This document shows, piece by piece, positions 6,034 through 51,300 of a stretch of 64,000 bases of DNA (position 1 is the first letter of the stretch; each line of letters starts with the position of its first letter). The position numbers and the translations under genes are program-made. Under the pieces are notes generated by a model. It ran no database searches, had not been told where the DNA came from, and worked only from the letters and a program-made list of their open reading frames with translations. This stretch comes from Flavobacteriaceae bacterium. GTDB taxonomy: Bacteria; Bacteroidota; Bacteroidia; Flavobacteriales; Flavobacteriaceae. The stretch lies in the NCBI GenBank assembly GCA_947446865.1, contig CANFHX010000001.1, positions 158,098 through 222,097 of the forward strand. Reading direction: 5' to 3'.

Positions 6034-6567
6034 ATGAAAATTTCAAAAGGAGCTTTACAAGATGTAATAATTATAGAACCTAGGGTTTTTGAAGACAGCC
6101 GTGGTTTATTTTTTGAATCGTTTAATAGCGAAACTTGGAAACTCCAAGGTCTTCCCTATGAATTTGTACAAGACAACCAATCGTATTCCTCGAAAGGGGT
6201 GTTGCGCGGTTTGCATTTCCAACAAGGAGCACACGCACAAGGCAAATTAGTGCGCGTTATTAGCGGACGAGTATTGGATATAGCAGTAGACATGCGCCCT
6301 GAATCTCCCACTTTTGGAAAATGGGAGTTTTACGATTTGGATGCCAAAACCAATAAAATGGTGTACATCCCAACCGGTTTTGCGCATGGTTTTCTAGCAT
6401 TAGAGGATAGTATATTTTCGTACAAGTGTACCGCTGGTTATAATAAAGAATCGGAAGGCGGCATTATTTGGAACGATCCAAAACTAAACATAGCTTGGCC
6501 AATTGAAGAACCGAATGTTTCTGAAAAAGATTTGATTTTACCCACTTTTGATTCTTATTTCGAATAA
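6034..6567 (+). CDS. rfbC: dTDP-4-dehydrorhamnose 3,5-epimerase
   Basis: A cupin-fold epimerase acting on dTDP-4-keto-6-deoxyglucose at C3 and C5. It has the motifs FEDSRGLFFES, VLRGLHFQ (catalytic His61) and YIPTGFAHGF. The 177-residue length is typical of RmlC. It begins 3 bp after rfbA. The next reading frame is only a remnant of rfbD, so the last enzyme of the rhamnose pathway is not intact in this window. Either rhamnose is completed by an rfbD elsewhere or the locus has lost the pathway. Confidence 0.97.
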   Translation: MKISKGALQDVIIIEPRVFEDSRGLFFESFNSETWKLQGLPYEFVQDNQSYSSKGVLRGLHFQQGAHAQGKLVRVISGRVLDIAVDMRPESPTFGKWEFYDLDAKTNKMVYIPTGFAHGFLALEDSIFSYKCTAGYNKESEGGIIWNDPKLNIAWPIEEPNVSEKDLILPTFDSYFE

Positions 6568-6575
6568 TTAGGAAC

Positions 6576-6647
6576 TTAAAAATTTTAGTTTTTGGAAGAC
6601 ATGGTCAATTGGGTCAATGTCTTAAAAAAGTTGCGGATAGCGAGTAA
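6576..6647 (+). pseudogene. rfbD: Remnant of rfbD (dTDP-4-dehydrorhamnose reductase N-terminus)
   Basis: Eight bases after rfbC the frame reads LKILVFGRHGQLGQCLKKVADSE and then stops. This matches the extreme N-terminus of RmlD-type SDR reductases (ILVTG-x-x-GQLG nucleotide-binding loop), at exactly the place where rfbD follows rfbC. The start codon position reads TTA instead of ATG, a TAA comes after 23 codons, and the rest of the gene is replaced by repeat-derived sequence. I read it as a degraded gene end. The match is short, so a chance similarity cannot be fully excluded, but position and motif agree. Confidence 0.72.
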
Positions 6648-6768
6648 ATAGTAGGACTACTATATTTGGATGAAGTAAAGGATACTATTTTAGATACTAT
6701 TTATCGAATTTATTTTCAAAACACAATCTAATTAACAACAAAAAGTGTCAAGTAATTTTAGGAAGGGT
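6648..6768. other. Short non-coding stretch after the rfbD remnant
   Basis: About 120 bp of AT-rich sequence without a credible gene. A short open stretch exists in one frame but shows no recognisable rfbD or other family motif. It leads straight into the 21-bp periodic array. Confidence 0.5.
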
Positions 6769-7293
6769 CAGGGAAAGACAATAAGTATAGTCCGTAGCTC
6801 AATAAGAACTTACCGAAGCTTAATCGTGATCTCCCGAAATTATTTCTTGTATTACGGAAGGTTTATCTTTACTTAAGGAAGCTTTATAAATACTTGTAGA
6901 AATTCCATCTTGACCTACCGAAGGGTAATCTTTACTTACGGAAGATCCTAAATGGTATACCTAAATGGAATAAGTACTTACGGAAAACGAACAACGTTAT
7001 GCCAAAAGCAAACAGAGAGGTTCTAAAAGCACAAAGCCTTATGTAGAGAACGAACAGCGTTATATCAAAAGCAAATAAAGAGATTCCAAAAGCATAAAGC
7101 CTTATGTAGAGAACGAACAGCGTTATTTCAAAAGCAAATAGAGAGGGTACTAAAGCAGATAGCCTTATGAAGCGAACGAACAGCGTTAGGTCAAAAGCAA
7201 ATAGAGAGGTTACAAAAGCATATAGCCTTATGTAGAGAACGAACAGCGTTAGGTCAAAAGCAAAGAAGCACATGCTAAAGAGAATTAAAGTTG
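6769..7293. repeat. Tandem array with exact 21-bp period, about 25 units; right part is 63-bp higher-order repeats
   Basis: Cutting the sequence every 21 bases from 6769 places a TACCGAAG/TACGGAAG-like core, or its variant TnnnAAAAGC, at the start of nearly every unit. There is no insertion or deletion over about 525 bp. From 6985 on, units group in threes, so GAACGAACAGCGTTA recurs every 63 bp (7048, 7111, 7174, 7237). Units differ by many substitutions while the register is kept. 21 bp is two turns of B-DNA. No gene is read through it on the plus strand. The minus-strand ORF 6932-7297 is a by-product of the 21-bp period (7-residue hydrophobic repeats, GTG start). Confidence 0.88.
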
Positions 7294-7809
7294 TCACTTA
7301 ACTCGCAACAACTCAGAATTACCTTTAGTACCCCCTCTCCTGTCATTGCGACGTTGGATGCAATCTAGGGGTTGGAGGAGAGGACAAATCGAAAGCTTGC
7401 AGTGACAGGTAACCGGCACTGTAGTTTTTCAAAACCCAAAACCCAGAACCCAGAACCTTTTGATGAGATTCTTCCTTCGTCAGAATGACAAGTCGCCGGG
7501 GGTGAAGTGCACAAAACAATAAAATAGTCAGAACTCATTGTATAACGTAAAAAGTGTATTTGAAAACGATACTCACTCCCCTCTCCTTTTTAGAGGGGCT
7601 GGAGGTGAGGTTAACTTAGAACCTCAGAACCTTAGCGCCTTAGTACCTTAAGAAGAGATTCTTCCTTCGTCAGAAGGACAAGTCGCCGGCACTGTAGTTT
7701 TCCAAAACCTAGAACCTAGAACCTAGAACCTAAAACCCAGAACCCAAAACCCAAAACACCATACAAAAAAATAAAATTATTTTTGTAATTTTGAAAAAAG
7801 ATTAAAAAA
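7294..7809. repeat. Mosaic of degenerate interspersed repeats, copy 1
   Basis: No gene is visible here. The stretch contains runs of a 7-bp motif (CCTAGAA/CCCAGAA, e.g. 7434-7459 and 7702-7760), and two copies of a CTTCCTTCGTCAGAA element (7461-7502 and 7651-7690). It also has a CCCCTCTCC...AGAGGGG hairpin at about 7577-7615 and a CCTTAGCGCCTTAG motif. The order of elements from about 7455 to 7760 is repeated at 9085-9385. TAnnTTTG-like boxes lie just before the next gene. Confidence 0.8.
7786..7793 (+). promoter_or_regulatory. Possible Bacteroidota -7 box for the PIN toxin-antitoxin pair
   Basis: TAATTTTG fits TAnnTTTG, and an overlapping TATTTTTG is at 7778-7785. The distance to the ATG at 7810 is short, giving a leader of about 10 nt or less. 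No clear -33 TTG is seen, so support is modest. Confidence 0.35.
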
Positions 7810-8452: not shown

Positions 8453-8557
8453 TGACTCAGCACCTTTTGAAGAGATTGCTTCGTCCCTCGAAATAACAAG
8501 TAACCGGTACCGCAGTTTACCAAAACCTAGAACCCAGAACCCAGAACCTTTTTGATC
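8453..8557. repeat. Interspersed repeat fragment between toxin and HigA-like gene
   Basis: About 100 bp built from the same elements as the flanking mosaics: CTTAGTGACTCAGCACC, a divergent GATTGCTTCGTCCCTCG segment, and CCTAGAACCCAGAACC. No gene is visible. Confidence 0.7.
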
Positions 8558-8914: not shown

Positions 8915-9439
8915 TAAAAATAAACGGACCATTCCTAACCCACGATCTTAGAAACGAACCTTAATGCCTTAGTTGCTCAGCGCCTTTAAAACAGATTGCT
9001 AAGCCAGTTCGCTATCGCTCGTGTCCCCGTGCATCGGAATGACATTTAACCGGTACTGCAGTTTTCCAAAACCCAGAACCTAGAACCCAGAACCTTAAGA
9101 AGAGATTCTTCCTTCGTCAGAAGGACAAGTCGCCGGGAGTATAGTGCTAATAACAACAAAATAGCAGAGACCTATTATAAAATAAAAAGTGTATTTGAAT
9201 ACGAAACTCACTCCCCTCTCCTTTTAGAGGGGCTGGAGGTGAGGTTAACTTAGAACCTTAGAACCTTAGCGACTCAGCACCTTAAGAAGAGATTCTTCCT
9301 TCGTCAGAATGACAAGTCGCCGGGGGTATAGTTTTCCAAAACCTAGAACCCAGAACCTAGAACCTAGAACCCAAAACCTTAAAAAACATTCCTCCTCCCT
9401 CGGAAAGACAAGCATCCGGAACCACAGTTCCCAAAAAAA
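8915..9439. repeat. Mosaic of degenerate interspersed repeats, copy 2
   Basis: 525 bp without a gene. Elements recur in the same order as at 7455-7760: CCTAGAACCCAGAACC, the CTTCCTTCGTCAGAA element (9098-9138), AAAAAGTGTATTTGAA, and the CCCCTCTCC/AGAGGGG hairpin. These are followed by GGAGGTGAGGTTAACTTAGA, CCTTAGCGACTCAGCACC, the CTTCCTTCGTCAGAA element again (9285-9325), and 7-bp runs to 9382. The two copies are in direct orientation about 1.6 kb apart and bracket the toxin-antitoxin genes. Confidence 0.82.
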
Positions 9440-11427: not shown

Positions 11428-12015
11428 GTTTCGAGTTCCGAGTTTCAGGTTTCGAGTTTCGAGTTTTGAGTTTTGAGTTTCAGGTTTTGTGTTCTAGGTT
11501 TTGGAAAACTATACCCCCGGCGACTTGTCATTCTGACGAAGGAAGAATCTCATCAAAAAGTTCTAGGTTCTAGGTCTTGGAAAACTACAGTACCGGCGGC
11601 TTGTCATTCCGAGGCACGAGGGCACGAGCGATAGCGAACTGGCTTAGCAATCTCATCACATGTTTCTGGGTTCTAGGTACTAGTTCCTCATAACTTAACA
11701 CTGACAACTTAATTCTGCTTTCTGAAAACTGAAAACTGACCACTAGTACCCCCGGCGACTTGTCATTCTGACGAAGGAAGAATCTCATCAAAAAGTTCTA
11801 GGTTCTAGGTTTCGAGTTTCAGGTTTCGAGTTTCAGGTTTTGGGTCCTCATAACTTGTTACTGACTACTAAATTCTGCTTTCTGAAAACTGAAAACTGAA
11901 AACTGAAAACTGACCACTGACCACTGACCACTCAACCTACTCCCTAGAAAAAAACTAATTATATAAAAAAAAAACCTATTTTTGTCGCGCCATACGCTTA
12001 ACCTAAATAATTTCT
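11428..12015. repeat. Mosaic of interspersed repeats in reverse orientation
   Basis: 588 bp without a gene. The elements of the 7.3-9.4 kb mosaics appear here as reverse complements: TTCTAGGTTCTAGG/TTTCGAGTTTC runs and ACTTGTCATTCTGACGAAGG at about 11514-11556 and 11749-11790. A divergent copy at 11594-11655 carries GCACGAGCGATAGCGAAC. There are also short tandem runs CTGAAAACTGAAAACTGACC (11720-11745 and 11880-11935). Together with the direct copies on the left they bracket the antitoxin/VanZ/sugar-transferase block as inverted repeats. Confidence 0.82.
11977..11984 (+). promoter_or_regulatory. Likely -7 box for the export operon
   Basis: TATTTTTG matches TAnnTTTG and lies 31 bp before the ATG at 12016. 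No clear TTG is found 19 bp upstream. It would drive the Wza-like/Wzc-like pair separately from the upstream genes. Confidence 0.45.
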
Positions 12016-15904: not shown

Positions 15905-16488
15905 CTAATCAGTGTTCAGTGCTCGGTGTTCAGTGCTCGGTGTTCACAAATAAAATCCGTTCTAATCCGTGCAATCTGTGGCAAAAACAACTACTTGCTA
16001 TGTATTCTATGCAAAGCGAAGCGCCTTAACTCCATTAAAAACCTATGAATCTCCTATGTGGTTAAAAAACAATTTCAATTGTAAATAAAATCCGTTCCAA
16101 TCCGTGCAATCTGTGGCAAAAACAACTACTTGCTATGTATTCTATGTAAAGCGAAGCGCCTTACTCCATTAAAAACCTATGAATCTCCTATGTGGTTAAA
16201 AAACAATTGCAAAATCAGCGATCAGTGTTCAGTGCTCAATGCTCGGTGATCAGTAATACAAAACACAATACCAATTGCCATCCTAAATTAAACAGTAACA
16301 ATATTCATCTGCGTTATCTGCGTAATAAAATTCAATGGCAACGTCAAAATCAATAACAAATAAAATCCGATCCAATCCGTGCAATCTGTGGCAAAAACAA
16401 CTACTTGCTATGTATTCTATGTAAAGCGAAGCGCCTTAATCCATCTTAAAACCAATCCATCTATGTGGTTAAAAAAACAATAGCAATA
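15905..16488. repeat. Three direct copies of a ~125-bp repeat plus short tandem runs
   Basis: No gene is visible. Near-identical copies start at 15947, 16083 and 16357. Each runs from AAATAAAATCCGTTC, through GTGCAATCTGTGGCAAAAAC and AAAGCGAAGCGCCTTA, to CTATGTGGTTAAAAAACAAT. Between and before them are GTGTTCAGTGCTCGG runs (15910-15946 and about 16210-16255). The high identity of the copies suggests recent duplication compared with the more degraded mosaics elsewhere. Confidence 0.88.
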
Positions 16489-50909: not shown

Positions 50910-51300
50910 GATTGTTGTAGATGCCATCGACATACATAATTATGCCGAAATTTTATAATTTTTCCTCTAGAATTATAAAATTATGCCATCGGCAATGTTG
51001 TAGATGCCATCGTCATACATAATTATGCCGAAATTTTATAATTTTTCCTCTAGAATTATAAAATTATGCCATCGTCATACATAATTATGCCGAAATTTTA
51101 TAATTTTTCCTCTAGAATTATAAAATTATGCCATGGTCATACATAATTATGGCATCGGCAACATTGTAGATGGCATCTACAAGTAATTTTATGGCAAAAT
51201 CATATAATAAGATCCTTTATAATTGTATAATTATGCTGTTTGCAACATTGTTTACGGCAGTTACAACTATGTTTTTGGCGTATACAACCACGACGGGAGT
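50910..51300. repeat. Second periodic array with 21-bp register, including three long AT-rich hairpins
   Basis: An ATGCC/ATGGC-like pentamer recurs at 50921, 50942, 50983, 51004, 51025, 51066, 51087, 51128, 51149, 51170, 51191, and (weaker) 51212, 51233, 51254, 51275. Steps are 21 or 41 bp (41 being two units minus one base). Three of the 41-bp steps carry an identical inverted repeat, ATTTTATAATT ... AATTATAAAAT (starting 50950, 51033, 51095). The array lies between the two inverted-repeat arms. No gene is visible. Confidence 0.88.

Follow-up and report, generated by a model that had tools for sequence, protein, structure and literature searches.

What keeps a tandem array in one exact register when its units have diverged almost beyond recognition? 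The question is raised by a 21-bp array at 6769-7293 of the window, the whole stretch of 64,000 nucleotides analysed here. When the array was fitted to a 21-column profile by dynamic programming, 25 units, 211 substitutions and no insertions or deletions were obtained, and the indel-free register described in the initial annotation was therefore upheld. The units share 60 % identity with their consensus (40 % of positions deviating), a depth of divergence at odds with the "very recent growth" also proposed there. The periodicity check, set beforehand, gave an identity of 0.502 at lag 21 (z 11 against first-order Markov shuffles), compared with 0.309 at lag 20 and 0.284 at lag 22. Identity was 0.516 at lag 42 and 0.654 at lag 63 (z 17). 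The latter value, together with a TRF call of 63 bp × 4.4 copies at 6986-7264, bears out the grouping into 63-bp units from 6985; successive 63-mers share 84-89 % identity. This second part has a separate set of units, and its register is unchanged from the first part. The core said to recur in every unit was found in about the first dozen units (TACCGAAG-type) and not in the 63-bp part. The claimed interval holds for the array except for its first two bases, which are part of a terminal repeat at 6745-6770, so that the true start lies at about 6771. The features of the locus are as follows.

6034..6567, + strand: rfbC, dTDP-4-dehydrorhamnose 3,5-epimerase, flanking gene.
6579..6645, + strand: rfbD (dTDP-4-dehydrorhamnose reductase), probably a 5' remnant of it, adjoining the insertion sequence (IS) remnant on the left; recognised by eye, its length being below what Pfam can match.
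6729..6744, + strand: IS subterminal remnant, common to other copies in the genome (genome search).
6745..6770, + strand: right terminal inverted repeat (IRR) of the IS3-family type, GTGTCAAGTAATTTTAGGAAGGGTCA; the IS body was on the left and is now lost.
6771..6984, no strand: 21-bp array, first part, diverged units with the TACCGAAG-type core, indel-free (autocorrelation, profile fit).
6985..7293, no strand: 21-bp array, second part, 63-bp higher-order units in 4.4 copies (TRF, autocorrelation).

The same array was sought in 60 relatives and was absent from them, and no plasmid homologues of the region were found. The array is also no CRISPR, as it consists of plain tandem units with no constant repeat between variable spacers.

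The array itself was correctly recognised at first reading, and what was overlooked is the IS3-family terminal repeat against which it directly begins, as well as the wider association of such ends with arrays. When the window's own genome (G000) was searched with the array plus flank as query, the 42-44-bp piece just upstream of the array (6729-6772) was found at six other places with 90-95 % identity. All but one of these copies are followed by DNA of 21-bp period (41-bp period in one case), mostly unlike the window array in sequence. Complete elements explain the piece. In a Flavobacterium metagenome-assembled genome (L034) the order is IRL, HTH orfA, DDE orfB, a long 3' noncoding part and IRR, and the transposase matches Pfam HTH_Tnp_1 and rve. 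In a copy from Chitinophagales (L190) both orfA and orfB are full-length, and the NCBIfam model NF033516 identifies the OrfB as an IS3 transposase (238.5 bits; cut-off 160). The ends (IRL TGTCATCTCCTAAAAAAACTTGACAC, IRR GTGTCAAGTAATTTTAGGAGGGGTCA) begin with TG and end with CA as in the IS3 family, and target duplications of 3 bp (ATC and AGT) at two rejoined sites lie in the IS3-family range of 3-5 bp. Judged by these sequence features, the 42-44-bp piece is the right terminal repeat of an IS3-family insertion sequence. Two other assignments, as part of a new repeat and as the end of another IS (of the DUF772-type fusion in F. psychrotolerans), were dropped, since L034 and L190 show the IS3 end. 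The window copy retains only 6729-6770, between the probable rfbD remnant and the array, and has no transposase.

The 3' end of the IS consists of degenerate 31-32-bp copies of the terminal repeat, roughly AGGAATAAC-N10-TGTAA-N5-TTT (lag-32 identity 0.50), which may be transposase sites. As 31-32 bp is about three turns, the IS too would seem to work in nearly whole turns.

Several minor observations concern the IS. Up to about eight of the terminal-repeat-like 31-32-bp units are present (L190 6210-6520, - strand; L040 150-480, - strand; L041; L206), and such a subterminal array is unusual for an IS3-family element. In L021 (contig C59 of G000, 6576-6619), L044 and L045, an IRR remnant of 35-45 bp stands alone exactly between genes and supplies stop codons of the genes beside it; in C59, a tyrosine recombinase gene begins right after the remnant. 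The IRL is tandemly duplicated with a spacing of 49 bp in L034 (6414-6488). In F. psychrotolerans, two different loci (L036 and L043, the same as L028 and L030) carry identical copies of a fusion between an IRR with its 21-bp array and a truncated transposase of the DUF772 type.

To what extent are these ends tied to arrays? Among 37 IRR junctions from 11 Bacteroidota genomes, the strongest period in the 260 bp outside the IS was 21, 41, 42 or 63 bp in 28, whereas random intergenic positions of G000 and G152 were periodic likewise in 18 of 245 cases (about 7 %). The binomial p of about 1e-24 is to be read as an order of magnitude only, because copies in the same genome are not fully independent. 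One IS3-family group thus adjoins 21-bp arrays far above chance, and the arrays mostly have their own unit sequence each. G676 has eight IS copies, identical across the 120 bp or more that can be seen; seven of them each border a different 21-bp array, and the remaining one borders a 7-bp array. IRL junctions are periodic less often (3/9), with three more carrying one to two and a half units. Both flanks of one IS copy are known only for L034, L190 and two contig-joined sites of G000, since draft assemblies break inside the IS; several of the source genomes are metagenome-assembled.

The search for further arrays of this period, as proposed in the initial annotation, yielded about 15 non-coding ones with period 21 or a multiple in 0.81 Mb of the same genome. 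In a survey of small sample size, for which the contigs of G000 were partly picked because they bear the IS, 16 of 20 non-coding arrays with a period above 15 bp in G000 (0.81 Mb) and 9 of 11 in G152 (Chitinophagaceae, 0.40 Mb) have a period of 21, 41, 42 or 63 bp. From 21 Flavobacteriales genomes that lack the IS, about 0.53 Mb yielded no array of these periods, and G089, with two truncated IS ends only, has a single 21-bp array in 0.40 Mb, which is IS-adjacent. Unit similarity exceeded the 99.5 % null in 16 of 169 pairs within a genome (0.8 expected) and in 5 of 651 pairs between genomes (3.3 expected). By this comparison the units are shown to cluster into families within a genome and to be essentially unrelated between genomes, despite the common period. 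The window array is one member of a class of non-coding satellites that is spread through the genome, with a period of exactly 21 bp and units peculiar to each locus.

Across the arrays, whose limits were set by eye, the profile fit gave 15 indel events against 1877 substitutions, and 12 of the 15 fall in two arrays, one of 41-bp units and one of mixed 20/21-bp units. The register is therefore not absolute, and indels are in part undercounted by ascertainment because lag 21 served to detect the arrays.

The information content of the 21 columns of each array was then taken as a Fourier spectrum and compared with a column-permutation null. In 29 arrays the second harmonic, at 10.5 bp, was significant (p=1.4e-5), and no other harmonic stood out. 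With the test fixed first, 12 arrays found later, all of them IS-adjacent, gave p=2e-5, again with 10.5 bp as the sole harmonic, and all 41 arrays together gave p=2.4e-9. The signal persisted under block permutation (5.9e-6 with two columns, 7.9e-5 with three), with one value per sequence family in two-column blocks (2.4e-4) and with inner distinct units only (1.3e-7). Thus, conserved unit positions recur every 10.5 bp throughout the class. The selection for phasing proposed at first reading, by a protein on one helix face, finds the 10.5-bp conservation that it would be expected to leave in the class as a whole, and not in the window array alone (p about 0.1-0.5), in which the strongest harmonic is 7 bp (p=0.01, one of seven tested). 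The alternative offered with it, DNA curvature, failed, as neither AA/TT (p=0.94) nor AAA/TTT (p=0.78) was phased at 10.5 bp over the 41 arrays. A 10/11-bp sub-repeat inside the unit was also rejected: the two conserved patches do not resemble each other in sequence (lag 10, p=0.99), and in the window array neither lag 10 nor lag 11 ranks with the strongest.

From the fixed pitch, the free sequence, the conservation on one face and the few indels taken together, we infer that a one-face contact would be the best single account. We therefore put forward, as a reading that we would neither favour nor disfavour against its negation, that the arrays are satellites held in helical phase by a putative contact on one face and used as landing sites by the IS3-family element. 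A period of 21 bp would be favoured since no smaller integer number of base pairs completes whole helical turns (2 × 10.5), and only periods of 21, 42 and 63 would keep a long array in phase. A putative factor on one face of the duplex would restrain change on that face and remove most indels; a DNA-binding protein arranged in a phased array is the simplest candidate. Slippage or unequal exchange, to which the 63-bp units and decayed edges point, would generate new units, and the IS3 transpososome might be drawn to the array geometry or to the putative bound protein. In the window, an IS copy would have inserted at the left edge of the array and afterwards been reduced to about 42 bp at its right end.

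The common step, the differing sequences and the repeated IS3 insertion suggest that the cell may read helical spacing and not letters. A more specific version, in which a host factor, or direct duplex-duplex pairing such as has been proposed for Neurospora RIP, contacts the arrays about once per turn over tens of 21-bp units and the IS3 element homes to that architecture, is unlikely as it stands. If true, it would mean satellites of free sequence but fixed pitch.

The serious rival is neutral satellite turnover, to which we assign a lesser but substantial likelihood. Replication or recombination would yield tandem duplications of about 21 bp, unequal exchange would turn them over, and the IS would accumulate there because the site is harmless or because replication stalls at repeats. 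The 42- and 63-bp higher-order units, homogeneous centres and decayed edges are typical of such turnover, the 41-bp and 20/21-bp arrays are evidence that an indel can be tolerated and then amplified, and varied 7-bp arrays are common in the same genomes. However, neither the 10.5-bp conservation nor so few indels are predicted by it, and harmlessness alone does not account for 28 of 37 IS ends lying at arrays when these occupy so little of the intergenic DNA.

Far less probable is that each unit is an inverted repeat, acting as an RNA hairpin, a single-stranded DNA structure or an operator-like site for a dimeric protein. Of the 41 arrays, 11 indeed have a dyad-symmetric consensus at p<0.05 (combined p=1.5e-5 under a dinucleotide-preserving null), but paired columns do not covary in a compensatory manner (p=0.56) and the 10.5-bp signal does not depend on dyad symmetry, being strong in the non-palindromic arrays (p=1e-7). 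In addition, no motif is common across genomes, and Rfam gave a single sub-threshold match in the window, which lies outside the array. Hairpins were rejected on the first two grounds.

Could the IS itself make the arrays, by amplification of the DNA flanking its IRR in 21-bp steps after insertion? Many arrays do begin immediately at the IRR, and it is the IRR junctions (28/37) more than the IRL junctions (3/9) that are periodic. Against this, when contigs C62 and C66 were rejoined across the IS with the target duplication ATC, the exact uninterrupted flank present in contig C31 was obtained, and C31 carries the array family of C62/C66 uninterrupted by the IS. Contigs C21 and C32, rejoined with AGT, have array units on both sides of the insertion. 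IS ends within a genome are near-identical (identical over the visible stretch), whereas the adjoining array units differ by up to half. In the sampled part of G000 roughly every second 21-bp array lacks a nearby IS end, and in G152 most of them do. Because of the two empty sites, the near-identical IS copies beside diverged arrays and the arrays without IS, sequence comparison shows the arrays to be older than the examined insertions, and they appear as the target and not the product. IS-made arrays were rejected on the empty sites and the age difference; they are largely refuted and very improbable.

Coding heptapeptide repeats (21 bp being seven codons, with selection on the frame removing indels) deserve hardly any credence for the class: the period is divisible by three, such satellites are common in prokaryotes according to a survey (PMC6749651) and a 97-aa frame runs over the L190 array, but open frames occur in 18 of 29 arrays against 17.9 expected from column permutation, variability has no codon-position bias (Fisher p=0.49), every frame of the window array has at least four stops, and 41-bp arrays exist.

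In the open-access papers searched, neither a class of 21-bp arrays nor an IS directed to such arrays is described. Bacterial repeat classes are usually defined by sequence (REP, CRISPR, iterons). The common property here is a two-turn pitch with a 10.5-bp conservation rhythm and free sequence, in several Bacteroidota families. If our reading of a phased, one-face contact is true, there would be machinery that reads helical phase, and a mobile element that targets geometry and not a motif. Plasmid iterons are tandem sites of about 20 bp, with a sequence in common, read by one Rep protein at the origin. They resemble the arrays in that tandem sites of about this length can keep one helix face, but the arrays are scattered over the chromosome and have no common sequence.

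The IS3-family elements IS1397, ISKpn1 and ISPsy8 insert into REP or palindromic units (PMC1525189), and the likeness lies in the family, the strong preference for intergenic repeats and the many copies per kind of site. However, REP targets share a palindromic sequence, whereas the arrays share a 21-bp pitch and no sequence across genomes. They are thus not REP or BIME elements, for which a shared palindromic sequence of 20-40 bp is required; units are unrelated between genomes and most are not dyad-symmetric. Prokaryotic satellites and minisatellites have been surveyed, and they are likewise tandem arrays with higher-order units, diverged edges and dispersed within-genome families (PMC6749651). 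The parts of the survey that were searched make no mention of such a 21-bp class, and the arrays described here differ from the surveyed satellites by a dominant non-coding 21-bp period, unrelated units, helix-phased conservation and a visiting IS. A proposal for Neurospora RIP is that interspersed homology is recognised through roughly one contact per turn, at spacings of 11-12 bp in one assay and 10 bp in another (PMC4858203). There too, matches about one helical turn apart over hundreds of bp carry the signal, but it is an analogy only: RIP is fungal, experimentally measured and concerned with long gene repeats, and here there is a conservation pattern alone. Heptamer direct repeats of Beggiatoaceae, Cyanobacteria and some Bacteroidetes (PMC4679880) are also short-period intergenic repeats in overlapping lineages. 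They have one heptamer sequence and a 7-bp period and are unrelated to the 21-bp arrays, though both occur in G000.

Other repeats were observed alongside. Imperfect 7-bp-period arrays with units AACCTAG, GTTTCGA and CTGAAAA lie at 7702-7757, 9336-9379, 11428-11501 and 11807-11932 of the window. Non-coding arrays of period 7 number 23 in 0.81 Mb of G000 and also occur in relatives without the IS; they form a class separate from the 21-bp arrays, though IS copy L208 adjoins one. A dispersed repeat of about 55 bp is present in at least five copies with 80-88 % identity (window about 7405-7460, 7677-7731, 8496-8551, 9040-9096 and 9310-9365) and has relatives in other Flavobacterium genomes. An intergenic sequence containing CAATCTGTGGCAAAAA is likewise dispersed and was found at 15948-16212 of the window, at 4590-4700 of L027 and in contigs C62/C66 of G000. 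It forms tandem duplications, of 135 bp in the window and of 62 bp in L027, and flanks one 21-bp array family. Finally, a tandem repeat at 50913-51151 of the window has reported periods of 62 and 83 bp, with apparently one common core.
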